DNA of 41,939 nucleotides, from contig JAFGQB010000303.1 of the NCBI GenBank assembly GCA_016935915.1, positions 1 to 41,939 on the forward strand, given 5' to 3'. The notes beneath the pieces were generated by a model. That model saw only the letters and a program-made list of their open reading frames with translations. It was not told the origin of the DNA and searched no databases. Each line of letters opens with the position of its first letter. The stretch's first letter is position 1. This document shows positions 11,820-40,233 of the stretch, in pieces. The position numbers and the translations under genes are program-made. This stretch comes from Spirochaetota bacterium (GTDB lineage Bacteria; Spirochaetota; GWE2-31-10; JAFGQB01).

Positions 11820-11914
11820 TTAATATTCAATTGATATTGAAAAATCAATTAAATAAATTTTAAAAAAGTAAAGTTTTTATATTTTTTTAATTAAATTATT
11901 TTTTATTTTTTATA
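11820..11914 (-). promoter_or_regulatory. Composite promoter element, copy a (GT39-TPR gene)
   Basis: On the minus strand: proximal box TTTACTTTTT with its GTAAA complement at 11868-11872, running without a break into TTTAATTGATT, a -35 TTGATT at 11848-11843, 17 bases, and -10 TATTAA at 11825-11820, some 42 bases before the ATG. The 30 bases from the box to the -35 match the other five copies closely. The distal box at +42 is degenerate, though the shared AATTTAA segment between the boxes is kept. Confidence 0.7.
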
Positions 11915-11993
11915 AAGACATGTTATAAACTATTAATAAATAATTATCCTGATAATAATTTAAATAATTATTATTCTAAGGAGCATCTCTTAA

Positions 11994-13301
11994 ATGAAAA
12001 AATTTAATATTATTGTAATTATACTTTTTTGTAGCTATTTATGCTGTACCAATTACAATGAAAGTCCCATGACAAAAAGGCAGCTGTTAAAGAAAGATAC
12101 ATATCAAAAAACAGAAATAGTGGATAAGGTAACATGGAAGGACTATGACATCAAAGGAAGAGTAAAACAATTTACCAGAGCGGAATATAAAATTATAAAT
12201 GAAAGCGGTAAACTTCAAAAAAGATTTTACAGAAAACAGTTGGTAAATTTTGATGAAAACGGAAATATTCTGGATGCCGGTGATATTAATATAAACGGTG
12301 AAAAAACAGCACAAGGATTTTATGAATATGATCAAGAAGGTAAATTGCTGGAAGTGAAATCTTATAATGCTCAAGGCAGATTGATAGAAAATGTAAAATA
12401 TGCATATAATGATAAAGGCATTAAGATCAGGGAAGATAATTACAATGTTAATTTAGCTGTAAATACTGCATGGATATATGATGAAAAGGGAAATGTTATA
12501 GAAATGAAAGAATATTCAAAAGATATGCTAATTACTTATGTCAGGATGAAATATCATTATGAAACAAATGCACTTATCGAGGAAGATACAATGCGTTATA
12601 AACCCAGCGGAGAATTTAATTTCAGAGAGATCACAAAAAACAACAGATACGGAGTAATATTAAGCAGATATAAATATAAGGATAAATTCAAAACAAAACT
12701 CGAAATTAAAGAACTGCATAATTATGACAGCAGAGGTTATGAATCAAAATTATATATACAAGCTTATGGTACACGTCCTAAAACCTGCATATATAAAAAC
12801 ATATATGATGATAAAGGATTTTTGATAAAAAGCACTTCAGCTTTTTATACATGGATTTTTAAATATGACATCAGGGGCAATCAGATAAAAAAAACCTCAT
12901 ATACATCCCAGGATTATCTTGAGTTTGAAATTTACAATGAGTATGATATTGATAACAACATGATAAAAGAAACAAAAATAGAGTACGACAGAAGTCCGGG
13001 TGCAGGTATAAACAAAAAAACAATAAATTTTTATGATAAAGAAGGCAGACTAATAAAATGGGCAAGATACGGAGGTAGAGTCGGTGATGAACTCCTTTAT
13101 GAACACCAGACCCTTTATAATGATAAAGGAATAATGACTGAACAGGTTATAGACAGCCCAGGGGACTCACGCCCGAGGATTAAAATCACCTATAAAGTTG
13201 ATTCATTGGGCAATATTTTGGAAAAAAGAGAGTATGCAATTTTTAATAATAGTGAAGAGTTGTTAACAAATATTTATGAATTTTCCTATTCATTTTATTA
13301 A
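11994..13301 (+). CDS. Secreted lipoprotein with YD/RHS-like repeats
   Basis: The 435 residues start with a lipoprotein-type signal (MKKFNIIVIILFCSYLCC, lipid cysteine probably C17 or C18). The mature part repeats a Y-D-x-x-G-x-x-x-x pattern about ten times: YDQEGKLLEV, YNDKGIKIRE, YDEKGNVIEM, YDSRGYESKL, YDDKGFLIKS, YDIRGNQIKK, YDKEGRLIKW, YNDKGIMTEQ. Such repeats build a beta-rich rod as in RHS/YD proteins, and no toxin or core domain follows, so this is a small stand-alone surface repeat protein. It has an AAGGAG ribosome-binding site and stands alone, divergent from the glycosyltransferase gene. The ligand is unknown. Confidence 0.72.
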   Translation: MKKFNIIVIILFCSYLCCTNYNESPMTKRQLLKKDTYQKTEIVDKVTWKDYDIKGRVKQFTRAEYKIINESGKLQKRFYRKQLVNFDENGNILDAGDININGEKTAQGFYEYDQEGKLLEVKSYNAQGRLIENVKYAYNDKGIKIREDNYNVNLAVNTAWIYDEKGNVIEMKEYSKDMLITYVRMKYHYETNALIEEDTMRYKPSGEFNFREITKNNRYGVILSRYKYKDKFKTKLEIKELHNYDSRGYESKLYIQAYGTRPKTCIYKNIYDDKGFLIKSTSAFYTWIFKYDIRGNQIKKTSYTSQDYLEFEIYNEYDIDNNMIKETKIEYDRSPGAGINKKTINFYDKEGRLIKWARYGGRVGDELLYEHQTLYNDKGIMTEQVIDSPGDSRPRIKITYKVDSLGNILEKREYAIFNNSEELLTNIYEFSYSFY

Positions 13302-13370
13302 ACCTATAAAATACTTAAAATAATCATATTGTAAGTTAATTCTTCGTAAAAGAACAATAACAATATAAAT

Positions 13371-13407
13371 AAAAAAAGGTCAACTAATATTAACATTAAT
13401 TGACCTT
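13371..13407 (-). terminator. Intrinsic terminator of the permuted GH53 gene
   Basis: On the minus strand AAGGTCAA (13407-13400) pairs with TTGACCTT (13383-13376) and is followed by a run of T. It starts 57 bases after the stop of the gene at 13464. It may also help stop the convergent lipoprotein gene. Confidence 0.7.
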
Positions 13408-13463
13408 AACACTTTGAACTGTTGTAATCCAGTATTAAATAGCATTAGCTACAAGGGAAATAA

Positions 13464-14399
13464 TTAGTAAGACCATGTATATCCAGCTGCTTCCATTTCT
13501 AATAGCCATGATATATCTGCTCCATGCGGTCTGCCTGATGTAATAGCATCGGTGAATTTATGTGTTGCCGGATCGCATGCATCCCAGGTATAACCCTGAT
13601 ATCCTTGCGCCTCTGGCTCCCAGTAATATACAGTTCCTATACTTTTTGCTCCATTGATAAAAGAAGCTGCACCTGATGCAAATCGCTCACATCCGATTTC
13701 ACAAACTGTATAACCTCCGCCCATTCTGCTGGCAGTGCTTTGAGCTGCACTTAAGTTCCCTGTTCCGTATATTGACATACCTTTACTTACACTTACACCA
13801 TTAGAACTTAAGATTCCGAAATTCCATGAATGCAATGAATAATCCTGACCATTGGAAATATGAACCAGAGAGCCTCCTCCTGCTTTACCTGCTGCAACCA
13901 AACCTGCATATTGTGAAGGATTTGTATCTGCTTTTCCGACAGGCCATAATAAACCATTGTTTGTTTCATTTCCAATCTGTTTTACACCGGCGCTGATCGT
14001 TGACTGCATATACGAAGTTACTTTTGATCTCAAACTATTATAATCAGTTGGCCAACCTGACGGTATAGTCTGTTTGCCTGGATCTGCCCATGAATCACTG
14101 AAATGAACTGAGAGCAATGAACAGCCGCCCCATCTGTTTGCCAATTCCTGATTGTGACTGGTATCACACCATCCGCTTCTTGTCCAGTTCCTAAGTCTTA
14201 ATCTGCTGACACCGTAGCTTTTTAAGATAGCGATGCATGTATCACCATTGCTTGCTCTGATAAGATCAGTATTATCCAAAACATCTAAATCTGATGAATT
14301 GATGTTCTGTGCCCCGTCATCAAAAGGATTACAGTTGAAAAAAATTGATAATGAAACAAACGTAATAATCACCAATAAAACAATAAAAAGTTTTTTCAT
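13464..14399 (-). CDS. GH53 galactanase, apparently circularly permuted lipoprotein
   Basis: The 311 residues begin with a signal peptide whose probable lipid cysteine is C23 (FFNC, a relaxed lipobox). GH53 features follow: GDTCIAILKSYGVSRLRLRNW (about 52-72), FSDSWADPGKQ (100-110), IGNETNNGLLWPVG with acid/base Glu145 (142-155), TVCEIGCE with probable nucleophile Glu234, and YYWEPEAQGY (258-267). The normal first strand of the family (GADIS plus MEAxGYTW) is absent from the N-terminus and instead forms the last residues: GADISWLLEMEAAGYTWSY (293-311). Joining end to start restores the canonical order, which indicates circular permutation. Length is near the usual GH53 domain. It would hydrolyse beta-1,4-galactan. 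It has its own promoter (copy b) and terminator. Confidence 0.8.
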   Translation of the reverse strand: MKKLFIVLLVIITFVSLSIFFNCNPFDDGAQNINSSDLDVLDNTDLIRASNGDTCIAILKSYGVSRLRLRNWTRSGWCDTSHNQELANRWGGCSLLSVHFSDSWADPGKQTIPSGWPTDYNSLRSKVTSYMQSTISAGVKQIGNETNNGLLWPVGKADTNPSQYAGLVAAGKAGGGSLVHISNGQDYSLHSWNFGILSSNGVSVSKGMSIYGTGNLSAAQSTASRMGGGYTVCEIGCERFASGAASFINGAKSIGTVYYWEPEAQGYQGYTWDACDPATHKFTDAITSGRPHGADISWLLEMEAAGYTWSY

Positions 14400-14451
14400 T
14401 CTCCTACTCCTTTTTTCTTGATTAATTTAACATTTAAGTTATTTTAAAAAA

Positions 14452-14547
14452 ATTATAGTTAAAGGTTTTAAAGAATTCAATTAAAATAATTTAGAAAAAG
14501 TAAAGAATTTGTACATATTTATATTAAAAAATTATAAAAAAGTAAAT
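14452..14547 (-). promoter_or_regulatory. Composite promoter element, copy b (permuted GH53)
   Basis: On the minus strand: distal box (GTAAA complement 14542-14546), 42 bp, proximal box (14500-14504), then -35 TTGAAT at 14480-14475, exactly 17 bases, and a perfect -10 TATAAT at 14457-14452, about 53 bases before the ATG. This copy has the best -10 of the six. Confidence 0.75.
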
Positions 14548-14659
14548 AATTTGTTAAAATATTTAAAAACTATTTGGCTGCTTTAATATATAAAAAATAA
14601 CCATATTATATAAAATATTGACTTATTTTTTTTTATTTTAAAGATCATGCATTATTTAA

Positions 14660-16993
14660 TTATTTGGAAATTATTTCAACCATATACTCAGGTTCAATTT
14701 CGACTTTTTTTATCCTGCAGGCTATTCCATTAATAAAATGGGGCTTAATGTCAAAACATATATCATCTTCTTTTGTTAACGGAATTAATTCTACAACAAT
14801 TTCTCTTTTTTTTTCTAAGACCTCTCTGTAGCGCTTCAGTCCGACTTCCAGAACTTCTCCATTAAAAAAATAATCGATTATTAATTTTTCATCAATATAA
14901 ACTTCAGCAGTATTGCATTCCAAATGGAGTCTTAAATAAATTTCATTTGCATAATACATATTATTAAATAGATCCTTTTGGAATTTAATTGACCAGCTGT
15001 TTTTATCTTTGCCATTTTTATTTTTTTTTTGATCAAATTTTATTTTATTGATTTTATCCTTATGAATTTTTATCCTGGAATAAAACAATTTTTTCTCATG
15101 TGCCAACATTTTATTGTTATAAAAAAAATTTATATCTTTATTCGGATATATCAAAAAATTCTGTTCAGCTTTTCTATCTGTGCTTATGATTCTGTTGTTC
15201 TCAAAAACTAAATCTGAATCCGTTATAATCAACCGTTGTTCAGTTAAATCATTAAATTTCCAGACTTTTAATTCATGCTCATTTTTTAATAACAATATCT
15301 CGATTGATTTATCAGTTTTTGATTTTATTTGAATTAAATCATCCGTATCTTGATTGCATTGATAAATAATCTCACTTTTATTTATTACAAATTTACCATA
15401 TTTTGCTTCTATTGTTACAATGGAATCTTTTTTAAAGTAAAAAACCGGTAAAATATCAATGCATTTTAAAAATATATAAGTTTTAATATCATTATTATTT
15501 AAAATGCAGAGAGGCTGAGCTTTGGCAAATATTAAAACTATATCATCGAGTTCCAGATTAAAAGGCCAAAAAAAATAGCTGTCTTTTTTTAATGTAAATT
15601 TTCCGAAATTTATAGCCTTTTTATTTATATTAACAGTTAAATCGGCATTTATATCTTCCATTTTATATTCACGCTGATAATTATTAAAGAAAACAAATCC
15701 GCTGTAATCACAACTTCTCACTGCATATCTTAATGTTTTTGTATCATAAGGAGTATCAGGAAAAATATCAGGAAAAGTTGTCTGCATCGTTGCAAGTGTT
15801 TCTGAATAATCATTTATAAAATAATGAAGTATTTTTATATATCTGTATGAATCAGAAATTTGGCCGTACATTCTCACAGGTGCCTGAAAGTCATAAGATA
15901 GTTTTGGAACAGTAGTCCATTCCCCTGCTTCTTTAGATTCATTTAAATAGCCATTTTTACCTTTTGGATTGATACCTCCGCTGAACATATAATATCCAAG
16001 AAATACCGCACCGCTTCCCAGCTGAACAAAAATATTTGAAGATACATCTTTAGGTTTTAGTAACGGTCTTCTTGAATATGTCAAGCATATTCCGCCGCCC
16101 ATTTCACACATAGTAAAAGGATATTTTTCTGGATCAAAAGCTGATTTAATCAGTCTGTGAGCTGTGGGACTTGTATAATTAATTACATCTCCGGAAGCTT
16201 TTCTGAATAAAAACTCAACAAACAAGGGAAGTTTAAATGTACTTTCTGCCCAGGGATGCGTAGAATAATTTGAAAGAACAGGAAGCAATTCTTCATCAGG
16301 AATTTTGGCACCCCCCCAGCCTGTTATTGTATATAGGGGAACATCATAACCAATATCAAGAATAAGTTTTTTTAATGTCAATAAATGATCAATTGAACCT
16401 TCGGCACCGCCGCAGTGACCGTATTCATTTTCAATTTGAACTCCGATAACAGGTCCGTTATCCTTAAAAAATTGTCCTTTTATCTGTTCATATATCTCTC
16501 TGTAAAATATCGCAACATATTTTAAATATTCAGGATTATTTTCTCTTACTCTATTGCACTTTTTAATAAGCCAATAAGGAAATCCCCCGTTTCTTACTTC
16601 ACCATGTCCCCATGGACCGACTCGTAAAAAAACATATAAACCTAAATCACAACATAATCTGGTAAAAGCTTTCAGGTCATTGTCCTTTTTCCAGTTCCAT
16701 TCACCTTCATTTTCTTCATGAAAAATCCAAAAAATATTTGTCGCCACTATCGTCAATCCGCATGTTTTCATCTTTAATAAAAAATCTTTCCAGAACTTAT
16801 GATCACATCTTGAAAAATGAAATTCCCCCATTAGAGGAAACCAGGGTTTGCTGTTTTTTTCATAATAAACATTATTAAGATTAATTGTATTTCCTTCTTT
16901 ATCTTTGCCGCCGAGATATCCGAAACAGTTTTTTATTATTTTTTTATGATTCTTTGAATCTATTGTAATTGTATAATTCTTGAATACATTCAT
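14660..16993 (-). CDS. GH35 beta-galactosidase
   Basis: This 777-residue protein without signal peptide should be cytoplasmic. The GH35 barrel is clear: WFPLMGEFHFSRCDHKFW near 51-68, NIFWIFHEENEGEWNW near 86-101, LRVGPWGHGEVRNGGFPYWL near 123-142, acid/base Glu190 in VQIENEYG, and nucleophile Glu297 in FTMCEMGGG. The C-terminal ~350 residues are beta-rich, very AT-rich and less familiar. It removes terminal beta-galactose from oligosaccharides. Its ATG overlaps the stop of the upstream GH53 gene by four bases. It is the last gene of the operon that starts at 27275; I see no clear terminator after it. Confidence 0.9.
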   Translation of the reverse strand: MNVFKNYTITIDSKNHKKIIKNCFGYLGGKDKEGNTINLNNVYYEKNSKPWFPLMGEFHFSRCDHKFWKDFLLKMKTCGLTIVATNIFWIFHEENEGEWNWKKDNDLKAFTRLCCDLGLYVFLRVGPWGHGEVRNGGFPYWLIKKCNRVRENNPEYLKYVAIFYREIYEQIKGQFFKDNGPVIGVQIENEYGHCGGAEGSIDHLLTLKKLILDIGYDVPLYTITGWGGAKIPDEELLPVLSNYSTHPWAESTFKLPLFVEFLFRKASGDVINYTSPTAHRLIKSAFDPEKYPFTMCEMGGGICLTYSRRPLLKPKDVSSNIFVQLGSGAVFLGYYMFSGGINPKGKNGYLNESKEAGEWTTVPKLSYDFQAPVRMYGQISDSYRYIKILHYFINDYSETLATMQTTFPDIFPDTPYDTKTLRYAVRSCDYSGFVFFNNYQREYKMEDINADLTVNINKKAINFGKFTLKKDSYFFWPFNLELDDIVLIFAKAQPLCILNNNDIKTYIFLKCIDILPVFYFKKDSIVTIEAKYGKFVINKSEIIYQCNQDTDDLIQIKSKTDKSIEILLLKNEHELKVWKFNDLTEQRLIITDSDLVFENNRIISTDRKAEQNFLIYPNKDINFFYNNKMLAHEKKLFYSRIKIHKDKINKIKFDQKKNKNGKDKNSWSIKFQKDLFNNMYYANEIYLRLHLECNTAEVYIDEKLIIDYFFNGEVLEVGLKRYREVLEKKREIVVELIPLTKEDDICFDIKPHFINGIACRIKKVEIEPEYMVEIISK

Positions 16994-18069
16994 TCTTTTT
17001 CCCAGCCTTTAATACCTAAAGTGGCTTTTGCATTATCGTCAAAAAGAGATCTGCATGATGCATCATCGTCATTCCAGTTTGCTTTAAGCCATTTTACGCC
17101 AACAGTGCTCTGACTCCATACCGCTCCCCAATACATTATTCCTGCGCACGATGGGTAGCTTGAAGCTTTTCTCTTAATATCTTTCATAAATTTCAGCTGT
17201 CCCTCCTGGTCCTGGGGGTAATCATGAGTAAACCTCCCTGCATCACTCTCCTTCCAGTAAGCTGCTGTTTCAATAATCCATACCTTATAGCCTGTATTTT
17301 CAAAACTCTTTATCCTGTAGCCCAGAGTTTCAATGCTTCCATGCCACATTAAATAATGAGAAATGAAACAGACATCAAATTTAGCACCAGCCTTTTTCAT
17401 ATCTCTAAACCATGACCATGATCCTTCCGCAGAATGAATGCCCACAGGAATAGAAGCAGAGACTGACTTTACTGCATCATAACCTTTTACGATCAATTTT
17501 ACCTGATTAGAGCCAAATTTAGAACACATTTCATTGTCAATCTCATTTCCGATTGAAACCATATCGATATTTTCTGCACCGATTTCTTTAATTGTTTCAC
17601 ATGTGTAATTATAAAGCATCTCTTCCAGTTTTGATTGGTTCAAAGGCCAATTTGAAGGCTTAAAGTTCTTTCCCGGGTCACACCAGTCATCGGAATAAAA
17701 AAATACCAGTAAAACTTTTAAATTCCTTGATTTTGCCTCTTTGATTACACTCTTTACATATCCAGTGGTCTGATAAAGCCCTGAGTTAGATGGCGGATCA
17801 ACCAGTATTCTTATTCTGATCCAGCTGAACCCATGATCTTTTAAAATATCAAGATAATGCTTTACTTTTCCGTCCAAATCCTTGTATTTAACACCTTTGT
17901 CCTGTGCATATTTTCCCTCGGATATGTCAGCTCCAAAAGGGAGTTCTATATAATTTTCAGTATGACTCTTATTTAATCTGTTATCATTTTTTTGAATATC
18001 AGCATAAAAAAAATTAATTATCAAAAAGAAAAATAAAAAAAATGAAAACATTAAAATTCTTTTTTTCAT
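16990..18069 (-). CDS. GH53 endo-beta-1,4-galactanase, exported
   Basis: The 359 residues carry a signal peptide (MKKRILMFSFFLFFFLIINF, cleavage probably after FYA). GH53 motifs in normal order: PFGADISEGKY near 44-54, YLDILKDHGFSWIRIRI near 72-88, FFYSDDWCDPGKNFKP near 123-138, SIGNEIDNE with acid/base Glu176, VWIIETAAYW with nucleophile Glu267, and GIMYWGAVW near the end. MYWGAVW replaces the usual FYWEP, so this is a divergent subgroup, perhaps with a different preference at the subsites. It is translationally coupled to GH35. It should act in the periplasm or outside the cell, unlike its operon neighbours GH35, GH42 and GH112. Confidence 0.87.
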   Translation of the reverse strand: MKKRILMFSFFLFFFLIINFFYADIQKNDNRLNKSHTENYIELPFGADISEGKYAQDKGVKYKDLDGKVKHYLDILKDHGFSWIRIRILVDPPSNSGLYQTTGYVKSVIKEAKSRNLKVLLVFFYSDDWCDPGKNFKPSNWPLNQSKLEEMLYNYTCETIKEIGAENIDMVSIGNEIDNEMCSKFGSNQVKLIVKGYDAVKSVSASIPVGIHSAEGSWSWFRDMKKAGAKFDVCFISHYLMWHGSIETLGYRIKSFENTGYKVWIIETAAYWKESDAGRFTHDYPQDQEGQLKFMKDIKRKASSYPSCAGIMYWGAVWSQSTVGVKWLKANWNDDDASCRSLFDDNAKATLGIKGWEKE

Positions 18070-18127
18070 GTTGATTCCTCTCTTTTTTATTTGGAATGAA
18101 AAATATCGAAGCTTGCAGTGAATAGTT

Positions 18128-20203
18128 TTAATTTTTTACTAAAACTAAAACATCTTTTTTATCAATTTTGATTTTTCCGCTAAACAATTTACCGGATAAT
18201 AAATCAATGAAATTTTCCTTAAAAAATTCAAACTCTAAGCTCATATCATTAAAATTAAGTATAAAATAATATTCCTTGCCTCTCTTTATTCTTAAGAATA
18301 CTTCCACTTTATCTGGAGTTGAAAACGGCTGAAGCAAACATGCTTCATTGCATAAACTCTTAAAAAAGTCATTCATGAATGATTCATCAGGTCTTGTTGA
18401 AATATAGTATGCTTTCCCTTTACCAAATTTGTTTTCAGTAATGCACGGTAAATCTGCATAAAAATCATTTTTATATACCGCTATTTCCTTTGCAGTTACT
18501 GCATGAACCACTTCTGCCCATAATGTACAGGAATACTCCTGTCTTAGCTTCAAATCTTTTTTTTCCTTAATAACAATATAATTTTTATCATCAGGCATCA
18601 ACGGGTCAAATTCTTCGATCTTTATACCCATCAAATCCTTTAATGGTCCCGGATACCCCCCCAAAAACACTGTTGAATCCTCATTAAGGACTCCGGAAAA
18701 ATATGTTAAAATTAATATCCCGCCATTATTGACATAGTTTTCCAATTTTTCTTTATAATTCGGTTTAATAACATGAAGCATGGGAGCAATTATTATTTTA
18801 TAATCAGTTAAATCAGAATTAAAAAAAACAATATCGCATGCCACATTTAAATTGTACAATGAGTTAAAATAATATTCGATTTCAGCAAAATAACCGATGC
18901 ATATGCTGGGAAAAGGCTGAGTGAAGTTTGCCCAAAAAACTGAATTGTCAAATGATCGAACACCGGATCCGTACGGTGTTTCAATTGCCCACCAGCTGTC
19001 ATTATCCATTAAAATTGCTGCTTTTGCATTGTTATCAGAGCCGATGATTTCCTTGATCTTTTCAAGTTCTTTTCCAAGTTCCATAATTTCTTTGAATACT
19101 CTTGACTCATCTCCGTAATGAGGCACCATTCCGCTGTGATATTTCTCAACTCCTTTTTTTTGCGCTCTCCATTGGAAAAACATTACAGAATCAGAACCAT
19201 GTGCAATTGCATGATAGCTGAACAATCTCATAACACCGGGTCTTTTTGCTACATTAACAGGATACCAGTCCACCTGTGAAGGCGCCTGTTCCATCAGCAT
19301 AAAAGGTTTCTTTTTTAATCCCCGCATCATGGCATGTCTTAAAGCAACCCGCCATTGAGCATAAGGGTCACTGGGGTTAGGGTAGCAGTTCCATGAGACA
19401 ACATCAAGATAATCCTTAAAACTCGAATGATCGAAATTCTTAAAATCGCCCTCAAAGTTTGTTGTTACCGGAATATCCGGGGTTATTTTTTTAATAACAT
19501 CATATTCGTTTAAATAACATCTTAAGAAACTTTCACTTATAAATCTTTTATAATCCATTAATTTAGATGAATTTCTGGGACCGCTTGAGGTTTTCGGAGC
19601 ATTGATATCTTCCCAGTCAAAATAATATTCTCCCCAGAGCTCTGTCCCCCAGGCTTTATTTAAATTTTCAATTGTCTGATATTTTTCTCTGCACCATTTA
19701 ATAAATTTAGTTTCACATGTTGAGCAAAAACACGCCTTTGTCTTCTGAGCATATTCATTATTTATATGCCATAAGGCAAGAGCCTTATGATCTTTATATC
19801 TTAATGCAAATTTTTCTGTCAAAAGTCTGCTGAACTTTAAGTAACTGGGACTGTTGGGACAATATGTCTGGCGTGAACCGATATTCAATTTTAATCCGGA
19901 TTCCAATACAGGTAGTATATCATCATATTTTTTTGTCATCCAGACAGGCTGAGCTGCCGAACTCGTTGCAAGGCACACATATATATCATTTTCAGCCAGA
20001 AGATCCATGATTTTATCAAGCCATTCAAATGTATAAGTATTTTCATCCCTTTGCAAAAGAGCCCAAGAAAAAATAGCAATACTTACTAAATTTACATTTG
20101 CTTTTTTCATCAGTCTGATATCATCCTGCCATACTTCCTCTGTCCATTGTTCAGGAAAATAGTCCGCACCAAATAAAATTTTTGGAATCTTTTTAGTTAT
20201 CAT
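18128..20203 (-). CDS. GH42 beta-galactosidase
   Basis: About 691 residues, no signal peptide. GH42 features: GADYFPEQW near 12-20, acid/base Glu in HINNEYAQK (about 150), zinc-site cysteines C115 and the CFCSTC cluster (about 158-163), and nucleophile Glu305 in FMLMEQAPSQVDW. A trimerisation domain and small C-terminal beta domain follow. I chose the second ATG of the frame (20203), because an AGGA lies eight bases upstream and the first codon of the frame is TTG. It cleaves terminal beta-galactose from galacto-oligosaccharides produced by GH53; GH42 plus GH53 is a common partnership. It sits six to nine bases after the GH112 gene. Confidence 0.93.
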   Translation of the reverse strand: MITKKIPKILFGADYFPEQWTEEVWQDDIRLMKKANVNLVSIAIFSWALLQRDENTYTFEWLDKIMDLLAENDIYVCLATSSAAQPVWMTKKYDDILPVLESGLKLNIGSRQTYCPNSPSYLKFSRLLTEKFALRYKDHKALALWHINNEYAQKTKACFCSTCETKFIKWCREKYQTIENLNKAWGTELWGEYYFDWEDINAPKTSSGPRNSSKLMDYKRFISESFLRCYLNEYDVIKKITPDIPVTTNFEGDFKNFDHSSFKDYLDVVSWNCYPNPSDPYAQWRVALRHAMMRGLKKKPFMLMEQAPSQVDWYPVNVAKRPGVMRLFSYHAIAHGSDSVMFFQWRAQKKGVEKYHSGMVPHYGDESRVFKEIMELGKELEKIKEIIGSDNNAKAAILMDNDSWWAIETPYGSGVRSFDNSVFWANFTQPFPSICIGYFAEIEYYFNSLYNLNVACDIVFFNSDLTDYKIIIAPMLHVIKPNYKEKLENYVNNGGILILTYFSGVLNEDSTVFLGGYPGPLKDLMGIKIEEFDPLMPDDKNYIVIKEKKDLKLRQEYSCTLWAEVVHAVTAKEIAVYKNDFYADLPCITENKFGKGKAYYISTRPDESFMNDFFKSLCNEACLLQPFSTPDKVEVFLRIKRGKEYYFILNFNDMSLEFEFFKENFIDLLSGKLFSGKIKIDKKDVLVLVKN

Positions 20204-20212
20204 CAAATCATC

Positions 20213-22396: not shown

Positions 22397-22498
22397 ATTT
22401 ATTCTCTCTTTTTATAAATTATTTTTGATTTAAATTAATCAAACTTAAGAAGCATTTAAAATTCCAATTTATTGTTTTTCAATAATCATGTTTATTAT

Positions 22499-23563: not shown

Positions 23564-23582
23564 AAAGAATTTTTTCCATTAT

Positions 23583-25142: not shown

Positions 25143-25251
25143 ATATAACTCCATATTTAGATAAATCCAATTTAATGATAAAATTTATAAAGATTCAATA
25201 TTATCCAACAATAATATAATTATATAATAAAAAAATTTTAATATCCATTAA

Positions 25252-27275: not shown

Positions 27276-27298
27276 TTTTTAACTCCTTGGAAATCAAA

Positions 27299-27326
27299 TT
27301 AACAAGGGGCTTAAGCCCCTTGTTAA
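27299..27326. repeat. Perfect 28-bp palindrome in the 5' leader
   Basis: Fourteen bases (TTAACAAGGGGCTT) are followed directly by their exact complement, with no spacer. It lies 24-51 bases upstream of the TTG start of the 612-residue gene and downstream of its promoter, so it should fold into a strong hairpin in the leader RNA. No T-run follows on the minus strand, so a simple terminator is unlikely. It may be an operator, an RNA stability or processing element, or a leftover insertion scar. Confidence 0.7.
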
Positions 27327-27421
27327 TGAGACCATCATTTTCCCGACATACCTCACATATCAGGCAACGCCTATTTTTAAAACATAAAATATAAAATATT
27401 TAATAATATTAATATGCTACA
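27327..27421 (-). other. Leader segment with unusual base composition
   Basis: Between promoter copy c and the palindrome, bases 27327-27372 are clearly richer in G and C than the surrounding intergenic DNA and include the small hairpin AGGC-AAC-GCCT (27362-27372). I compared it by memory with common riboswitch cores and found no match. It holds no convincing open reading frame. Together with the palindrome it makes a leader of about 140 bases that may be structured. Confidence 0.35.
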
Positions 27422-27516
27422 AATATTCCATTGATGGATTTAAAAATCAATTAAATAAATTTGAAAAAAGTAAAATTTTTATACTATTTAAGTTAAATTA
27501 ATTTTAATTAATTAAA
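27422..27516 (-). promoter_or_regulatory. Composite promoter element, copy c (main GH operon)
   Basis: On the minus strand the proximal box (GTAAA complement 27470-27474) runs through TTTAATTGATT into -35 TTGATT at 27450-27445. The -10 is weak (AATATT at 27427-27422 with a 17-base spacer, or TATTTG two bases on). The segment ATCAATGGAATATT is shared with copies a and f. The distal box is degenerate (TTTAA at 27516-27512). It drives the operon 27275 to 14660. Confidence 0.65.
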
Positions 27517-27592
27517 AAAATTATAAAAGTATGTCTAATTATTTTCATTGAAATAAAATTAAGATGATATTTAATAAATATACATTAAAATA

Positions 27593-29884: not shown

Positions 29885-30034
29885 AAAAGCTGATAAAACA
29901 TTTTTTTGAAATATATTAATAATTTTAGTTTATTAATACAAATTTGTCAAAATTTATATCAAATATTCATTTATAATTAATCTGATTTTTAGATATTCCT
30001 AAAAATATTCAATTAATAATTAAATAGTATTATT

Positions 30035-31473: not shown

Positions 31474-31585
31474 TTTAATCTCCTTTTTTTTTATCATTTT
31501 CCTAAATATTTTTTCTTAAATTTGCTTTCTTTAAACCCTTATACCTCCTTTCCCTGATAAATTTAACAATGCGTTTTGTAAAAAA

Positions 31586-31681
31586 AAAGTAAAGGATATG
31601 TTAATAAATATCAATTAAAATAATTTTGAAAAGGTAAAGAATTTATAAAAATTCGGCTAAAATATTTTTGAAAAAGTAAAT
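31586..31681 (-). promoter_or_regulatory. Composite promoter element, copy d (porin-like gene)
   Basis: On the minus strand: distal box (GTAAA complement 31676-31680), exactly 42 bp, proximal box (31634-31638), then -35 TTGATA at 31614-31609 and, 17 bases later, TACTTT at 31591-31586. A third TTTAC box (31589-31593) lies 45 bp beyond the proximal one and overlaps that -10, so this copy may have an extra site able to repress. The leader to the ATG would be about 105 bases. Confidence 0.72.
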
Positions 31682-31723
31682 AATTTATAGAAATATAAAA
31701 AAACTACAAGACAAGTATAAAAA

Positions 31724-32846: not shown

Positions 32847-34742
32847 TTATTTAATAGGCACCAGTTCAAAATCATCGATAGTACCCCAGTTTCCTCCAGC
32901 TGCATTGCAGTACAAACCTATAGTCAAAGTCTGGCTCGCATCTACATCGATCTCAATCACATATTGATGCCATTCGGGCCATACAGTATCTTTTATATCT
33001 TTCTTTTTTGTCACTGCACCGCTTGTTGCATAGAAATAATATTCAAATTCACCTCCGCCTCCTTCTGTCCAAACTGAAACTCTGTATTTACCCGGCTTTA
33101 AACCTGCAATGGTCTGAAAAGCTTTGAATTTAAATCCTGCAGGTGCCCAGAAGCCCAAAGCATACTTGCCTGTTCTGACATTGCCTGCTTTTGTTTCCAT
33201 CTCATCCTTAATACCGTCCGCAGGATCAAATTTCCAGCCTGATTTATCACCAAGTTCAAAACCCGGGTTCTGAAGCAGTGAAACCGAAACATTGGCTTTA
33301 ACTTTAACACTTGAATCTTTTACACTGCCCTGAACAACGAATTCAGCACCACCTTTATCATATTCCTTTGGATCGATTTTATCCCATACAATCTGTACCG
33401 GTTTTAAACTGTCGCTTGTATGCCATGCATTTACCGTATCTGGAAGTACAGGTGCGACCTTTGCATTTGTCGTAACGCTTATATCCGGAACAGAGACAAG
33501 ATCATATTTATATTTTTTATTCTTTTCATTAACCAACAGATATGTCCAGATTGATTCAAGAGGCTTGCCGTTTTTATCCCACCATGCCATATTGTCCCAT
33601 GCATTACCCTCACCAGTAATCCAGCCGCATCCGTCAACAGGTATCCAGTCCGGTTCCCAGTAGAAAACTCCCAGACCTCTATCCCTTGGAACCTGTGCAA
33701 CTGCAGCCATAATATCTCTCATACATAAAGCCTGCCCCTGAACAGTAGCTTTATAACCGCCTCTATTCTGTCCATCTTCAGAAAACATATTATCATGCTT
33801 ATCTCCATTTTCAAGGGTGTAAGCATAAGCAGTTTCAACTACTATAACCGGTTTTTTGGTTTTTGCTGTTATATCATTTAAATTTTGAATTAAAGAATCT
33901 ATAGGCTTGTCCCAGAACGGATAATATGATAATCCGATAATATCATAACTAATAAAAACATAATCAAAAAAATATCTCGAATCCAGATTGTTTCCGCCGT
34001 CAGGTATATGTATCATAACTTTTGTTTCAGGAAGAACATCTTTAACCGCTTTTGACGCATTCTTTAATAAATTAAAAAAAGCAACCTTCTGTGAGGGGAA
34101 ATGCCCTACCGGCCAGCAGATTCCATTCTTCACTTCATTGCCAAGTTGAACTATTTCAGGTGCGATATTTTCATTTTTTAACTCAATTAAAACTGATTTT
34201 GTATAATCATAAATTGCCACTGCCATTTTTTTTGCGTTTAATTTTTTCCATGCATCAGGAATCATCTGGTTTCCCGGATCAGCCCAGAAATCACTGTAAT
34301 GAAAATCAAGTAGAACCTTCATCCCCAATGCTTTTGCTCTTTTACTTATCTTTTTTACCATGGCAAGATCGCAATTCCCTCCGCCAACCGGATCTCCCGG
34401 TTTAACATTGGTTAATTTTCGATTTTCTATCATTTCCTTTGAAAATACTGGATTGTTCCAGAGCCTTAGTCTGATATAATTTACCCCTTTATTCTTTAAG
34501 ATTTCCAAACAATCCTTTTCTTTACCGTCGGTATCGTAAAATTTTCCACTATTTTTTTCAATTTGATTCAACATTGAAACATCAACGCCTTTGATAAAAT
34601 CAGGACTGATATTGTCAATCGAATCGATTTTAATGCTCAAGTTAACAGGCGGAGTATCCGCTGCATATAAATTAATTATCTGCATACTGAAAAATAATAT
34701 TAAAATCAAAACAAATGCATTTTTAAAAAAAGATTTTTTCAT
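32847..34742 (-). CDS. Secreted multidomain GH53 galactanase with Big4 and CBM
   Basis: The 631 residues comprise a signal peptide (cut near LYA-AD, residue 27), a full GH53 domain (about 45-405), a bacterial Ig-like group-4 domain (about 418-488, VWDKIDPKEYDKGGAEFVVQG) and a jelly-roll carbohydrate-binding module (about 491-631, QNPGFELGDKSGW to GTIDDFELVPI). GH53 landmarks: KGVDVSMLNQIEKNSGKFYD, LLDFHYSDFWADPGNQ, LGNEVKNG with acid/base Glu203, VVETAYAYT with nucleophile Glu303, and GVFYWEPDW. The CBM fits a CBM61-like galactan binder by context, which is inference. It should be the main extracellular endo-galactanase. It is a single-gene unit with promoter copy e and a terminator. Confidence 0.94.
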   Translation of the reverse strand: MKKSFFKNAFVLILILFFSMQIINLYAADTPPVNLSIKIDSIDNISPDFIKGVDVSMLNQIEKNSGKFYDTDGKEKDCLEILKNKGVNYIRLRLWNNPVFSKEMIENRKLTNVKPGDPVGGGNCDLAMVKKISKRAKALGMKVLLDFHYSDFWADPGNQMIPDAWKKLNAKKMAVAIYDYTKSVLIELKNENIAPEIVQLGNEVKNGICWPVGHFPSQKVAFFNLLKNASKAVKDVLPETKVMIHIPDGGNNLDSRYFFDYVFISYDIIGLSYYPFWDKPIDSLIQNLNDITAKTKKPVIVVETAYAYTLENGDKHDNMFSEDGQNRGGYKATVQGQALCMRDIMAAVAQVPRDRGLGVFYWEPDWIPVDGCGWITGEGNAWDNMAWWDKNGKPLESIWTYLLVNEKNKKYKYDLVSVPDISVTTNAKVAPVLPDTVNAWHTSDSLKPVQIVWDKIDPKEYDKGGAEFVVQGSVKDSSVKVKANVSVSLLQNPGFELGDKSGWKFDPADGIKDEMETKAGNVRTGKYALGFWAPAGFKFKAFQTIAGLKPGKYRVSVWTEGGGGEFEYYFYATSGAVTKKKDIKDTVWPEWHQYVIEIDVDASQTLTIGLYCNAAGGNWGTIDDFELVPIK

Positions 34743-34801
34743 AAATTTAACTCCTGTTTTTAATAATAAATAAATTAATAGAATGTCTATAATTTGTAAA
34801 A

Positions 34802-34897
34802 AAAATAAAAAATAATCAGACTAATATCAATTAAATAAATTTTGAAAAAGTAAACAATTTATAATAATTTGACTAAAATAATTATAAAAAAGTAAAG
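34802..34897 (-). promoter_or_regulatory. Composite promoter element, copy e (secreted GH53)
   Basis: On the minus strand: distal box (GTAAA complement 34892-34896), exactly 42 bp, proximal box (34850-34854), -35 TTGATA at 34830-34825, 17 bases, -10 TATTTT at 34807-34802, about 60 bases before the ATG. Each box carries a second TTTA 19 bases on (TTTAGTC in the distal box, TTTAATTGA in the proximal), giving four half-sites in direct repeat. Confidence 0.75.
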
Positions 34898-34913
34898 AAT
34901 TTAAAGAAAATTT

Positions 34914-34948: not shown

Positions 34949-34971
34949 AATTTGATTAATATATTATTTAA

Positions 34972-36498
34972 TTATTTATGATATTTAAGATAAGCATCAA
35001 CCTGCTTTTGTATTTCTGCCTTGATTTTCATAACACCCGCAGCCTTAAGTTTTTGGTCCAAAAGCTTGTACTGTTCTTCAACATCCTTTACAGCACCGAT
35101 ACCTATGGGATTTCCATATTGAACCATAACCTGATTAACTGTGGCAAGTTCAGTTTTGATTTTTGTTGTATCAAATGCAATGACTTGAAATATAGAGGGC
35201 ACTAGATATCTCTTCATATCATTTTTTAATTTTCCATATTCTTTTGTCCACGAAGCCAGTGGCAAAAAATGATCTTTGTTTGTAAACCAGAATCCTGAAG
35301 CATCAGGCGGGTAAGGATTTTTATCTGCTGTAAGTCCCGGAGGAAGATCTATTTTTCCATCTTTAATTACATAGTGTTTACCTTCAATACCGAAATAAAC
35401 CAGATAATCATAAGATTTATCCTGCATTATCCTGTCAAGGAACATCAATGTTCTTTCAGGATTTTTACAGGTTGCGGGTAGTGCAACACCATTATTTATA
35501 TAAGGATCTGCAATATAATGACCGTTTATATTTAACAGAGGTATGATCTCCACTTCCCATCCTTTGGCAATTGCTTCGGCAATATTTGACTGAATGTTCT
35601 GTGAATTACCAAAACCTATTGCGGATTTTCCGAGGTTAAATGATGTCTTGCTTTGAACAGAATTTGAAAAGGCATCCTTGTTTACATAACCTTTTTCATA
35701 CCATGATTTCATGATCTTTGCAGCTTTCAGCTGGTTGGCAAAATCCTCCCCTTCAAGAGTATATATAACCTTATTTGATTTATCATCAAGGCCGAAATCG
35801 CAGCCGCTTCCGCCCCCTGTAGAATAGAGAACATCGAAATAATAATCACCGAACTCGGCTCTTAATGCACCCATTGGCTGTCCTATATCATAAGATTTAT
35901 CAAGTAACATGGGAACCATTTCTTTTTCATTCCTTTTGATCACATCAAAATATTTTTCCAGATCAGAAAATTTTTTAATCTCTGGAACATTGTATTTTTT
36001 TCTTAAATCGGCACGGATAATCGCAACCGGCATTTTTTTGTCCGGTGTTGAGGTCGGTATCATATACATCTTACCCTTAACCTTTGTTTCAGCATATGCT
36101 TCTCTGGGAAGTGCTTTAAAATGCAAAGGCATATAGTTTTTAAGCATATCTTCCGTTATCTCTAAAAAAGCCCCCCTTGCAGCCTGCTGGAAATAGAAAG
36201 CCCAGTTTGCCGTATATATAAAGTCAAAGTCCTGTCCCGAAATAAGTAGCAAAGGATATTTTGACTGTAGATCGCCCCAGTCAATGTGATTGATTTCAAC
36301 TTCTGCATTAATATCCTGTTTCAGTCTTTTATTCAACTCATCCACTACATCTTCCATGCCGGGAGGCGGACCTCCCAGAAGATAACCGTTTAGCTTAACA
36401 TACTTTTTGGTATCAATTTTAGTCTGTGCAATAATTGTTGAAGATAAAAAAACTAAAATCAATACCATTGCCAGTGATTTCATAATTATTTTTTTCAT
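34972..36498 (-). CDS. Sugar-binding protein B, non-lipoprotein paralogue
   Basis: The 508 residues have a signal peptide cut by signal peptidase I (LSSTIIAQ, then TKIDTK) and no lipobox cysteine. The mature part aligns throughout with the product of the next gene upstream: KLNGYLLGGPPPGMEDV, INHIDWGDLQSKYPLLL, TANWAFYFQQAARGAFLEIT and TGGGSGCDFGLDD are near identical in both. It is an LplA-type solute-binding protein with a DUF3502-like C-terminal region. An AGGAGG site precedes the ATG. A terminator-like hairpin lies between the two paralogues, so this copy may be made at a lower level. Presumed ligands are galacto-oligosaccharides taken up with LplB/YtcP. Confidence 0.88.
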   Translation of the reverse strand: MKKIIMKSLAMVLILVFLSSTIIAQTKIDTKKYVKLNGYLLGGPPPGMEDVVDELNKRLKQDINAEVEINHIDWGDLQSKYPLLLISGQDFDFIYTANWAFYFQQAARGAFLEITEDMLKNYMPLHFKALPREAYAETKVKGKMYMIPTSTPDKKMPVAIIRADLRKKYNVPEIKKFSDLEKYFDVIKRNEKEMVPMLLDKSYDIGQPMGALRAEFGDYYFDVLYSTGGGSGCDFGLDDKSNKVIYTLEGEDFANQLKAAKIMKSWYEKGYVNKDAFSNSVQSKTSFNLGKSAIGFGNSQNIQSNIAEAIAKGWEVEIIPLLNINGHYIADPYINNGVALPATCKNPERTLMFLDRIMQDKSYDYLVYFGIEGKHYVIKDGKIDLPPGLTADKNPYPPDASGFWFTNKDHFLPLASWTKEYGKLKNDMKRYLVPSIFQVIAFDTTKIKTELATVNQVMVQYGNPIGIGAVKDVEEQYKLLDQKLKAAGVMKIKAEIQKQVDAYLKYHK

Positions 36499-36518
36499 AA
36501 ATCCTCCTAAATATTTTT

Positions 36519-36556
36519 AAAAAAAAGAGCAGTCTGCACTGATATCGAGACTGCTC
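36519..36556 (-). terminator. Intraoperonic terminator or attenuator between two SBP genes
   Basis: On the minus strand GAGCAGTCT (36556-36548) pairs perfectly with AGACTGCTC (36535-36527), followed by a run of eight T. It lies 43 bases after the stop of the first binding protein and directly before the ribosome-binding site of the second. It could set the ratio of the two proteins or stabilise the upstream mRNA end. Confidence 0.8.
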
Positions 36557-36598
36557 AAGAAAATCAAATATTACTTTTTGCTTCTTTTATTTTAAATA

Positions 36599-38137
36599 TC
36601 ATTTCATTGAACTCAAGTAAGCATCAACTTGTTTTTGTAACTCTTCCTTAACTTTCATGACACCGCCTGCTTTTAATTTTTCGTCAAAAATTTTATATTG
36701 TGCATCAATATCCTTAACTGCTCCGATCTGTACAGGCTGCCAGTACTGAACAATGACCTGATTTATTGTAGCAAGTTCTGTTTTTATTGATTCTGTATTC
36801 CATGCTATCACCTGAAAAATTGTCGGAACCAGATAATTTTTTTCTTTGATGTCTTTCTTTAATTGAGCATACTGCTGTGGCCATGTAGCCAGAGGCAGGA
36901 ATATATCTTTGTTTGTAAACCAGAAACCAGCTGCATCCGGCGGATATGTATTTTTATCTGCAGTAACACCCTCAGGAAGATCGATTTTACCGTCTTTAAT
37001 TATATAATTTTTACCTTCAATTCCAAAATAGACAAGATAATCATAAGATTTTTCTTCCATTATAAGATCAAGGAACATCAATGTCCTTTCGGGATTTTTA
37101 CATGCAGCAGGAAGAGCAACACCATTATTGATAAACGGATCAGCATAATAATGACCGTTTGCATTTAATTCAGGTATGATCTCGATTTCCCAGCCTTTGC
37201 TTGCGGCATCTGCCAGATTTGCCTGAATATCCTGTGAATTTCCAAGACCTACAGCAGATTTACCGAGATTAAATGAATCTTTGCTTCGGACAGTGTTAGC
37301 AAATACATCCTTATTTATATAACCTTTTTCGTACCATGATTTAATTATTTCAGCGGCTTTTTTAGTATTTGTAAGATTATCTCCTTCAAGATAATAGGTG
37401 ACTTTATTGCTAGGGTCATCAAGACCGAAATTGCATCCGCTGCCGCCGCCTGTGGAAAAGAGGACATCAAAATAATAGTCGCCAAGTTCAGCTGCCAAAG
37501 CGGCAAAAGGTCTTCCTATATCATAGGATTTATCAAGAAGCATCGGGATCATCTCTTTTTCATTTGCTTTTATTGCTTCAAAGTACTTTTCCAGATCAGA
37601 ATATTTTTTTATCTCTGGAACATTATACTTCTTTCTTAAATCGCCGCGGATCATAGTTACCGGGATCTTTCTGTCCGGAGTAGATGTAGGAATCATATAC
37701 ATCTTACCGTTGACTTTTGTTTCGTTGTAAGCATGTTTCGGGAGTGCTTTATAATGTCTCGGCATATATGTTTTAAGCATATCTTCGGTTATTTCAAGAA
37801 ATGCCCCTTTGGCAGCCTGTTGAAAATAAAAAGCCCAGTTTGCTGTATAGATCCAGTCAAAATCCTGACCTGAAGTAAGCATCAGAGGATACTTTGATTG
37901 AAAGTCTCCCCAACCTATATAATTTATTTCCATGGCTGCATTTATATCTTTATTTAGTTTTTCATTAAGCGCTGCCATTACATTAGGCATTCCTGCAGGA
38001 GGTGCACCCAAAAGATATCCAGTAAGTTTAACGGCTTTTTTAGTGCTGACTCCTTTAGTGCAGCCTGCAATAAAGATTAAAATTAAAACTGACAAAATTA
38101 ATACTATTACTAATGACCTAGTAATGATTTTTTTCAT
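36599..38137 (-). CDS. Sugar-binding lipoprotein A (LplA-type)
   Basis: About 512 residues. I place the start at the ATG at 38137, seven bases after AGGAGG; a longer frame begins at 38164 but has no such site. The signal ends with the lipobox FIAGC, so the protein is anchored. The mature part (KLTGYLLGAPPAGMPNV, INYIGWGDFQSKYPLML, TANWAFYFQQAAKGAFLEIT) belongs to the LplA/DUF3502 group. It follows the YtcP permease by about 50 bases and is followed by an attenuator and then a close paralogue. It is the likely main receptor of the LplB/YtcP importer. Confidence 0.9.
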   Translation of the reverse strand: MKKIITRSLVIVLILSVLILIFIAGCTKGVSTKKAVKLTGYLLGAPPAGMPNVMAALNEKLNKDINAAMEINYIGWGDFQSKYPLMLTSGQDFDWIYTANWAFYFQQAAKGAFLEITEDMLKTYMPRHYKALPKHAYNETKVNGKMYMIPTSTPDRKIPVTMIRGDLRKKYNVPEIKKYSDLEKYFEAIKANEKEMIPMLLDKSYDIGRPFAALAAELGDYYFDVLFSTGGGSGCNFGLDDPSNKVTYYLEGDNLTNTKKAAEIIKSWYEKGYINKDVFANTVRSKDSFNLGKSAVGLGNSQDIQANLADAASKGWEIEIIPELNANGHYYADPFINNGVALPAACKNPERTLMFLDLIMEEKSYDYLVYFGIEGKNYIIKDGKIDLPEGVTADKNTYPPDAAGFWFTNKDIFLPLATWPQQYAQLKKDIKEKNYLVPTIFQVIAWNTESIKTELATINQVIVQYWQPVQIGAVKDIDAQYKIFDEKLKAGGVMKVKEELQKQVDAYLSSMK

Positions 38138-38188
38138 AAATCCTCCTTTTAATTTAAAAATCAAAATATAAAATAAAAAGAATAATAG

Positions 38189-39082
38189 TTATTCTTTAAG
38201 TGATCCAAGGGTAACACCCTTAATAAAATATTTTTGTAAAAACGGATACAAGAGTATAATTGGTCCTGTTGATACTACTGTCATCGCAAGTTTTAAAGTT
38301 TCCTTGGGCATATTAAAAGATGCAATATTGTTAACCATGTAAGCTGCAACATTAACGCTGGAGAGTATCTGATAAAGAACATACTGTAGCGGATAAAGAG
38401 ATTGTTTGTCTATGAACATCATGGCTGTCCACCAGTCATTCCAGTAATATAATGCTATAAACAATCCTATGGATGCCAAGGCAGGCTTGCTCAAAGGCAG
38501 TATAATCCTTGTAAAAATATAAAAATCTCCCGCCCCGTCGATTTCCGCGGCTTCAGTCAGCGACTGCGGTATAGATCTGATGAAATTCTTTAGGATCAAC
38601 ACATATAGAATATTGGTTGGAACAAACATCGGTAATAGCAATAATACCCAGATCGTATTTCTCAAATGCAAAATATTGGATACTACGATATAAAAGGGAG
38701 CAAGACCACCGCTGAAAAGTGTAGTAAAATAGATATAAAATGTCATGATATTTCTGTACTTTAGGGTCCTTCGTGATAAAACATAAGCGGTCATTGCCGA
38801 AATAAAAAGAGCCGAACAGGTTCCTAAAGATGTTATGAATATGGTTACATAATAAGCCCGTAAAATTTTTTGCGGATTATTGAAAATCAGACTGTAAGAT
38901 TCCAGAGAAATGGTTTTTGGAATTATTGTATAGCCATAGGTTAGGATATCTCTCTCTTTTGCAAAAGAACTCCCGATCAGAACAACAAAGGGATAAATAG
39001 TTACAAATCCGATAACAGTTAATATCAAATAGCCTATTATGTTAAATGCTATCTCGTCAGCCGTTTTTCTTATTTTTTTCAT
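38189..39082 (-). CDS. Sugar ABC permease, YtcP/LplC type
   Basis: The 297 residues form about six membrane helices. The cytoplasmic EAA loop reads EAAEIDGAGDFYIFTRIILP (177-196), and the C-terminus YFIKGVTLGSLKE is typical of the LplC/YtcP group. It starts 18 bases after the LplB gene ends and pairs with it to form the channel of an oligosaccharide importer. No ATPase gene is present, as is common for carbohydrate uptake (CUT1) systems that share a single MsmK/MsiK-type ATPase encoded elsewhere. Confidence 0.93.
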   Translation of the reverse strand: MKKIRKTADEIAFNIIGYLILTVIGFVTIYPFVVLIGSSFAKERDILTYGYTIIPKTISLESYSLIFNNPQKILRAYYVTIFITSLGTCSALFISAMTAYVLSRRTLKYRNIMTFYIYFTTLFSGGLAPFYIVVSNILHLRNTIWVLLLLPMFVPTNILYVLILKNFIRSIPQSLTEAAEIDGAGDFYIFTRIILPLSKPALASIGLFIALYYWNDWWTAMMFIDKQSLYPLQYVLYQILSSVNVAAYMVNNIASFNMPKETLKLAMTVVSTGPIILLYPFLQKYFIKGVTLGSLKE

Positions 39083-39100
39083 TAAAAAATTTTCCTTTTC

Positions 39101-40030
39101 TTAAAATAATGCATAGTCTTTTTCTATCTTTCTTACTATTCCGTTAACGGTAACTATGATCACAAAACATAGAACGGACTGATATAGCCCGGCAGCGGAA
39201 GCCATTCCGAAATCCTGAGTCCCTACTATTGAGCGGAATACAAGTGTATCTATGATGTCGGTCTTATCAATCAAAATTCCATTATTCCCGATAAGGTTAT
39301 AAAACATATCAAATTCTCCACGGAGGATCCTGCCTATGCCAAGTAAAATAAGGATTATCATTGTTGGTTTTAAAGACGGCAGTGTAATATGTCTTATCCT
39401 TTGAAACACTGTTGCACCGTCAATTATTGCTGCTTCATATATCTGCGGATCTATTCCCATTATGGCGGCAAGATATAAAACACTGTTGAATCCCACCCAT
39501 TTCCACACATACATAAACGGAAGAATAAAGAGCCAGTACTCCGGGGTCGCATAAACATTGATGGGTTCAAGCTTCAAAGCGGCAAGAATTTTATTCATGG
39601 TTCCAAAATCATAATTGAAAAAGTTGTATACCATAGCGGCGACAACAACCCATGATATAAAATAGGGTAGAAACATACTCGACTGACAGACCTTTTTGTA
39701 AATCCTGCCGTTAAGATCAGCAACAAAAACAGCGATAAGTACAGAAAAAAAAGTTGTGCATGTTAAAAATATCAGATTATATAAAATCGTATTTATCGTG
39801 ACCTGAAATGCTTTACCCGATTTGAAAAAAAATTCAAAGTTTTTGAACCATATCCACGGGCTGGTCCATAATCCATCCCTGTAGTTGAATTCCTCAAATG
39901 CCATAACAATCCCGGTCATCGGTATATAGGCAAAAAGAATCAGATAAATAAAGATCGGTGCAAACATTAAATAAAGAATCCTGTTTCTTACAAATTCAAG
40001 AAAGAAACCGTTCTTTTTTGATAAATCCAT
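39101..40030 (-). CDS. Sugar ABC permease, LplB type
   Basis: The 309 residues have six predicted helices and the EAA loop EAAIIDGATVFQRIRHITLP beginning at residue 199. N-terminal YLMFAPIFIYLILFAYIPMTG and the later YLAAIMGIDPQIYEA are typical of LplB. It is the first gene of the transport operon LplB, YtcP, binding protein A (then B), driven by composite promoter copy f. It forms a heterodimer with YtcP in the inner membrane. Confidence 0.94.
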   Translation of the reverse strand: MDLSKKNGFFLEFVRNRILYLMFAPIFIYLILFAYIPMTGIVMAFEEFNYRDGLWTSPWIWFKNFEFFFKSGKAFQVTINTILYNLIFLTCTTFFSVLIAVFVADLNGRIYKKVCQSSMFLPYFISWVVVAAMVYNFFNYDFGTMNKILAALKLEPINVYATPEYWLFILPFMYVWKWVGFNSVLYLAAIMGIDPQIYEAAIIDGATVFQRIRHITLPSLKPTMIILILLGIGRILRGEFDMFYNLIGNNGILIDKTDIIDTLVFRSIVGTQDFGMASAAGLYQSVLCFVIIVTVNGIVRKIEKDYALF

Positions 40031-40137
40031 TGTATAATCCTTTATTATTTAAAAAAACCTTGCTGCCTTATAAATATATTAATTGCTTAAATTTATAGTG
40101 CAAATAATATAAATTACCTGAACATTGTTTTTTATTA

Positions 40138-40233
40138 AATATTTCATTGATAATAGTAAAAATCAATTAAATAAATTTTGAAAAGGTAAAATTTTTATAC
40201 AATTTTGGTTAAATTATTTTTAATTTAGTAAAT
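40138..40233 (-). promoter_or_regulatory. Composite promoter element, copy f (transport operon)
   Basis: On the minus strand: distal box (GTAAA complement 40228-40232), exactly 42 bp, proximal box (40186-40190), and -35 TTGATT at 40166-40161. The -10 is weak (AATATT at 40143-40138, or TATTTA just beyond), in the same sequence ATCAATGAAATATT as copy c. It lies 108-203 bases upstream of the LplB start. The rest of the gap 40031-40318 is AT-rich and shows nothing else I can name. Confidence 0.7.

Follow-up and report, generated by a model that had tools for sequence, protein, structure and literature searches.

We analyzed a 41,939-nt stretch of DNA from a Spirochaetota bacterium (GenBank assembly GCA_016935915.1, contig JAFGQB010000303.1), the whole of which we call the window, and found six near-identical minus-strand sites, a to f, each placed ahead of a gene or operon. 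We consider it probable, at roughly 0.8, that these sites are operators of a locally encoded regulator (27593–29884, minus strand), which joins a dCache-like sensor to an AraC-type DNA-binding domain and would activate a regulon for beta-1,4-galactan. GH53 enzymes are endo-beta-1,4-galactanases and galactan is a side chain of pectin; galactan is thus the presumed substrate, as the window holds GH53 genes at 13464–14399 (partial), 16990–18069, 22499–23563, and 32847–34742. An initial annotation had linked the sites to a galactan regulon under this regulator, and the link has gained support: the draft genome contains no other copies of the motif, relatives of the regulator stand beside galactan genes, and the motif core is found at the matching transporter and GH53 promoters in two other lineages. 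The sites, their confinement to the locus, the 42-bp phase within them, the domains of the regulator, and the co-occurrence of the core with galactan genes in regulator-bearing relatives were all computed directly.

Shared Sequence and Position of the Sites

Read on the forward strand, the GTAAA complements of the six sites lie at 11868, 14500, 27470, 31634, 34850, and 40186, and rereading the sequence confirmed all six positions given in the initial annotation. The block common to the sites, with an A/T content above 80%, has the invariant form TTTACYTTTT...TTTAATTGA and runs into a TTGAWW hexamer, with a constant 20 bases between the C of TTTAC and the start of TTGA. In an ungapped alignment of 90 bases, the mean column identity was 80%, and many of the invariant columns fell within the TTTAC-to-TTGA block. 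Beyond approximately –60 to +27, the likeness among the sites was barely above that of AT-rich DNA, and recent duplication of whole blocks therefore seems unlikely. Searching the window for the pattern TTTACYTTTTNNAAANTTNTTTAATTGA with at most three mismatches returned exactly these six places, where 0.01 matches were expected by chance.

All six sites are oriented with the downstream gene and lie 90–195 bp ahead of its start. The proximal unit of site a (11841–11882; ATATAAAAACTTTACTTTTTTAAAATTTATTTAATTGATTTT) precedes a PMT_2-TPR gene (9568–11778) and is divergent from a plus-strand gene at 11994–13301; that of site b (14473–14514), continuing as TTGAAT-17-TATAAT, precedes a GH53-like lipoprotein gene (13464–14399); and that of site c (27443–27484) precedes the main glycoside hydrolase (GH) operon (27275–14660). 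The proximal unit of site d (31607–31648), the best-scoring unit of the window, stands before a putative outer-membrane protein gene (30100–31497), that of site e (34823–34864) before a secreted GH53 gene (32847–34742), and that of site f (40159–40200) before a transport operon (40030–34972). All of these units are on the minus strand.

The initial annotation had described a 96-bp architecture with a second box 42 bp upstream. This is complete in four of the six sites (b, d, e, and f), where a second TTTAC stands upstream at exactly 42 bp from the proximal one, and decayed in the other two, with TATAA in a and TTTAA in c. Shifting the proximal unit against its own upstream sequence gave an identity of 65% at 42 bp, compared with about 30–53% at other shifts. 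The distal units, also on the minus strand, match their own proximal units at 33 of 42 positions in site d (31649–31690), at 29 of 42 in both b (14515–14556, 42 bp upstream) and e (34865–34906), at 24 of 42 in f (40201–40242, with TTTAC at the exact 42-bp offset), and at 19 of 42 in the degenerate unit of a (11883–11924); in c (27485–27526), the first box is degenerate. For the further proposal of four half-sites in direct repeat, the case is weak: each of the six proximal units has a second TTTA at +19, but the surrounding sequence repeats little (identity of 52% over 14 bp at +19 and 55% at +18, with no peak at 21).

The –10 elements of the target promoters are mostly poor. Good elements had been claimed for copies a and b; that of b is perfect (TATAAT at 17 bp), while that of a is only moderate, and the element of d is poor. 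Between the –35 hexamer and the gene, sites a, c, and f contain an additional common 14-bp string, ATCAATNRAATATT (11822–11835, 27422–27435, and 40138–40151, minus strand), that forms an inverted repeat with TTGAT; its placement relative to TTGA is shifted by 2 bp in site a, and sites b, d, and e are without it.

Confinement to the Locus

The genome is a draft of 3.7 Mb in 310 contigs and is 78% complete. A pattern scan of the whole draft with at most three mismatches recovered the six sites at zero to one mismatch and four other places, one with two mismatches and three with three. The two-mismatch place (contig C290) is outside the galactan cluster, beside genes that by sequence reading resemble those of fatty-acid synthesis, and was treated as a chance match. 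A profile search found the six sites at E-values of 6e-15 to 2e-11, the next best being 0.036; across the draft, the sites scored 45.6–56.9 bits and the runner-up place 16 bits. As this profile was trained on the six sites themselves, a held-out test provides a fairer measure: with a matrix trained on five copies, the sixth scored 48–87 bits, while nothing else in the window scored above 0.9 bits and the best place in random AT-rich intergenic-like DNA (2 × 265 kb) reached 11–18 bits. Many copies before unrelated genes, which the initial annotation had named as the outcome speaking against a regulon, were thus not found by either scan of the 3.7-Mb draft. On the evidence of the draft genome, the element is confined to the galactan cluster.

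The Regulator and Its Promoter

No transcription factor other than the proposed regulator was identified in the window. For this protein, hydropathy predicts membrane segments at residues 24–59 and 311–346, flanking a dCache-like sensor at residues 87–303 (dCache_1, 2.2e-9; the 37.7 bits are below the curated cut-off of 45). The C-terminal AraC-type domain at residues 682–759 matches Pfam HTH_18 at 8.8e-17, and the domain also has matches among solved YesN- and AraC-type domains. Only dCache_1, HTH_18, and HTH_AraC were matched in the protein, with no histidine kinase or receiver domain among the hits.

A likely promoter of the regulator gene (29922–29950, minus strand; TTGACA-17-TAAAAT) agrees with the consensus at 11 of 12 bases and carries no operator copy: upstream of the gene, the best unit score was no better than in shuffled sequences (p 0.37). 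Autoregulation was rejected, as no operator stands above background there, and the combination of a near-consensus promoter and a missing operator makes a steady level of the regulator likely. Poor –10 elements at the target promoters, set against this near-consensus promoter, are as expected for activator-dependent promoters.

Motif Core in Related Genomes

No other genome was available for the genus and family of the source organism. Its order and class contain eight others; at the cut-offs applied, the regulator was absent from all of them, and a search of these eight same-order genomes for the full motif found nothing significant. No closer relative turned up when the genus, family, and class were searched. 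The closest comparison came from a 6.8-Mb Spirochaetales metagenome assembly (G009), whose regulator is 48% identical to that of the window, with near-identical recognition helices (SAAYLGRLF and NKTHFYNMFKK). Its only GH53 gene is 60% identical to window gene 16990–18069, and its closest galactan-transporter operon encodes a substrate-binding protein (SBP) 76% identical to 23583–25154 and a permease 53% identical to 39101–40030. A 29-bp element, TAGTGTACTTTTTTAWAAAAGTTTTAATA, stands shortly before both this GH53 gene and this transporter operon, and a whole-genome scan with at most three mismatches found it at these two places only. The element and the window units share TNTACTTTTTTAWAA in register (promoter-level p 0.0065 and 0.008); with the longer 42-bp matrix, the GH53 promoter of this genome gave p 0.048. 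An initial match in this genome (C230) precedes a gene for which no tie to galactan use was made, and was judged unrelated. Separately, a longer repeat-like sequence containing CCCATAGTAACACAGA recurs in the assembly (locus L012, 7070–7230; locus L020, 840–1015). In L020, it stops immediately ahead of the 29-bp element, and it resembles a dispersed repeat of no relation.

In a third lineage (G014/G053), a related regulator with 26% identity lies inside a run of permease, permease, SBP (57% identical), regulator, and GH42 genes, and in G014, genes for GH53, a GalE-like epimerase, an alpha-galactosidase, and GalT are found near this run. A similar core, TACTTTKTTNAA, is present in the promoters of the permease run and the nearby GH53 gene: within 20 kb around the G014 regulator, the permease promoter has the best core match, TTTACTTTGTTGAAAA (p 0.0005), and within the neighboring 15 kb, the GH53 promoter does, with GCTACTTTTTTCAATT (p 0.06). 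This genome has a GC content of 61%, and seven core matches this good were found in the 435 kb sampled, two of them at these promoters. The motif core thus accompanies transporter and GH53 promoters in two genomes with a related regulator. A more distant regulator (G328, 23% identity) has other transport genes beside it and added nothing to the evidence.

Proposed Mechanism and Alternatives

From these patterns, we infer regulator binding, the ligand, activation, and the number of dimers as follows. The extracytoplasmic Cache-type domain would act as the sensor, its ligand probably being either a galacto-oligosaccharide or a binding protein in its loaded state, and the cytoplasmic AraC-type domain would bind the TTTACYTTTTNNAAA...TTTAATTGA units. 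Of these, the proximal one, running into the TTGAWW –35 hexamer, has the layout of a class II activator site, and the other, four helical turns (42 bp) upstream and so on the same helix face, could accommodate a second dimer. With RNA polymerase recruited to the mostly poor –10 elements, six units would rise together: the secreted and internal GH53s, the GH112/GH42/GH35 operon, the ATP-binding cassette (ABC) transporter, the outer-membrane protein, and the PMT_2-TPR protein.

Several observations weigh against operators of this regulator. At 78% completeness, the draft could lack further sites as well as other regulators. In the relatives, the 42-bp tandem was not found, and the downstream TTTAATTGA part is not conserved beyond chance, for which reason only the core is claimed across lineages. 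The full window-motif profile yields nothing significant in the Spirochaetales assembly; the two copies found there are one element and count once as evidence, and its core is palindromic, with the orientation reversed at the transport operon, which the direct-repeat model did not predict. The match in the G014 GH53 promoter is weak by itself.

The sites could serve the galactan cluster under a different transcription factor encoded elsewhere, the local AraC gene controlling something else. In a first-look search, this incomplete genome gave 24–31 unscored candidates for stretches similar to the regulator; the motif is nevertheless confined to the cluster in which the AraC-type gene is the sole recognized regulator, and the core and the regulator recur jointly with galactan genes in two other lineages, which leaves the explanation unlikely. 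A more far-reaching idea is that the exact 42-bp doubling reflects an obligatory four-subunit complex of the membrane-tethered regulator, which would gather the six promoters, spread across 28 kb, at the membrane as one co-regulated hub. We regard this as quite doubtful.

Explanations without regulation fit the data less well. The near-identity of the 30-bp block, together with the extra bases shared within the subgroups a, c, f and b, d, e, might reflect copies of a repeat or mobile element spread locally without a regulatory role. Such copies would hardly all be gene-oriented and placed at 90–195 bp from a gene start, with unlike flanks and with exact 20-bp and 42-bp phases kept while the bases between vary, nor would their core be expected at the matching promoters of other lineages, and we consider this origin very improbable. 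The A/T-rich block and the –35-like hexamer would also suit a general strong promoter or an AT-rich UP-element consensus acting without a specific regulator, the more so as the window contains many consensus-like promoter matches by chance. The held-out scores, however, exceed those of random AT-rich DNA by 30–70 bits, and nothing comparable is found elsewhere in the 3.7 Mb; the genome-wide pattern and profile scans largely refute this explanation, and we rejected a general promoter or repeat element as hardly credible.

Comparison with Known Systems

Operators read by the dCache-AraC regulator would resemble those of the AraC/XylS-family carbohydrate activators of the AraC, MelR, and RhaS type, which have a C-terminal double helix-turn-helix, direct-repeat sites, and a proximal site abutting or overlapping the –35 element. 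The sites of AraC have a classic repeat of 21 bp, however, whereas the repeat here is 42 bp, and the sensor of those activators is a cytoplasmic cupin rather than a Cache-type domain in a membrane-spanning protein. In the parts of the literature consulted, tandem or direct repeats are common among AraC-type polysaccharide regulators and lie upstream of the promoters where the regulators are inferred activators (PMC8579813, PMC3878776). The hybrid two-component systems (HTCS) of Bacteroides, as far as described there, share sensing from outside, an AraC-type output, and direct-repeat operators in polysaccharide loci, and one such operator is assigned to pectic galactan (PMC3878776). They differ in having sites of 12–16 bp with periods of 20–21 bp (PMC3878776), compared with units of ~34 bp at 42 bp here, and in the kinase and receiver domains, neither of which was matched in the window regulator. 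Single-component AraC-family regulators of Caldicellulosiruptor are likewise encoded beside an ABC transporter and GH genes and have tandem-repeat sites upstream of promoters, as inferred activators; these are Firmicutes using other substrates, and a 42-bp doubled unit is not among the features described in the sections consulted (PMC8579813). The doubled operator, which has no match in the consulted parts of these two papers, is an unusual feature on an otherwise ordinary kind of regulon.

A limited literature search found no operator described for this regulator type in spirochaetes and no description of this galactan regulon. For a membrane-bound Cache-AraC regulator from a spirochaete class with little sampling, the analysis would add a regulon and a DNA motif that are specific to one locus and open to testing, together with a core, TACTTTKTTNAA, seen across lineages and a presumed substrate. 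The motif would also assign poorly annotated genes, namely those for the 612-aa protein described below, the putative outer-membrane protein, and the PMT_2-TPR protein, to galactan use.

Genes of the Six Units

Pfam and NCBIfam searches identified GH53, GH35-like, GH42, and GH112-type galactosyl phosphorylase genes, three SBPs of the DUF3502 type, two permeases, and the PMT_2-TPR protein. The last, a PMT_2 (GT39-like) membrane protein with TPR repeats by Pfam, forms unit a (9568–11778, minus strand, as are all six units). Unit b (13464–14399) encodes a GH53-like protein assigned by Pfam PF07745 and recognized as a lipoprotein by its N-terminus; it covers only part of the GH53 domain (profile positions 27–205 of 340) and could represent either a binding protein or the remnant of an enzyme. 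Unit d (30100–31497) has a hydrophobic N-terminus and is a putative outer-membrane protein without a family match in the databases searched. Unit e (32847–34742) is a secreted GH53 with a Big_4 domain (Pfam, 1.3e-115), and unit f (34972–40030) is the transport operon, with two permeases and two DUF3502-type SBPs by Pfam.

The main operon, unit c (14660–27275), comprises by Pfam and NCBIfam a 612-aa protein without assignment, an SBP, a GH53, a GH112-type phosphorylase, a GH42, a GH53, and a GH35-like gene; we infer its extent from the common strand and mostly short gaps, one of them being 282 bp. The gene labels of the initial annotation hold in part: its "porin" is the unit d protein without any database match, and its main GH operon opens with a protein of no known family. 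For this 612-aa protein (25437–27275, minus strand), no Pfam, NCBIfam, or convincing Protein Data Bank (PDB) sequence match was found, which makes it a candidate for a new galactan-related enzyme. Between site c and the operon, the leader contains a perfect 13-pair hairpin (27298–27327, minus strand; ATTAACAAGGGGC TTAA GCCCCTTGTTAAT), possibly an attenuator or an mRNA stabilizer.

The plus-strand gene divergent from site a (11994–13301) encodes a YD/RHS-repeat-like protein with a lipoprotein-like start. A counterpart with 28% identity directly adjoins the GH53 gene of the Spirochaetales assembly (L020, 2578–3933), which suggests that the protein is a conserved partner of the galactan locus.

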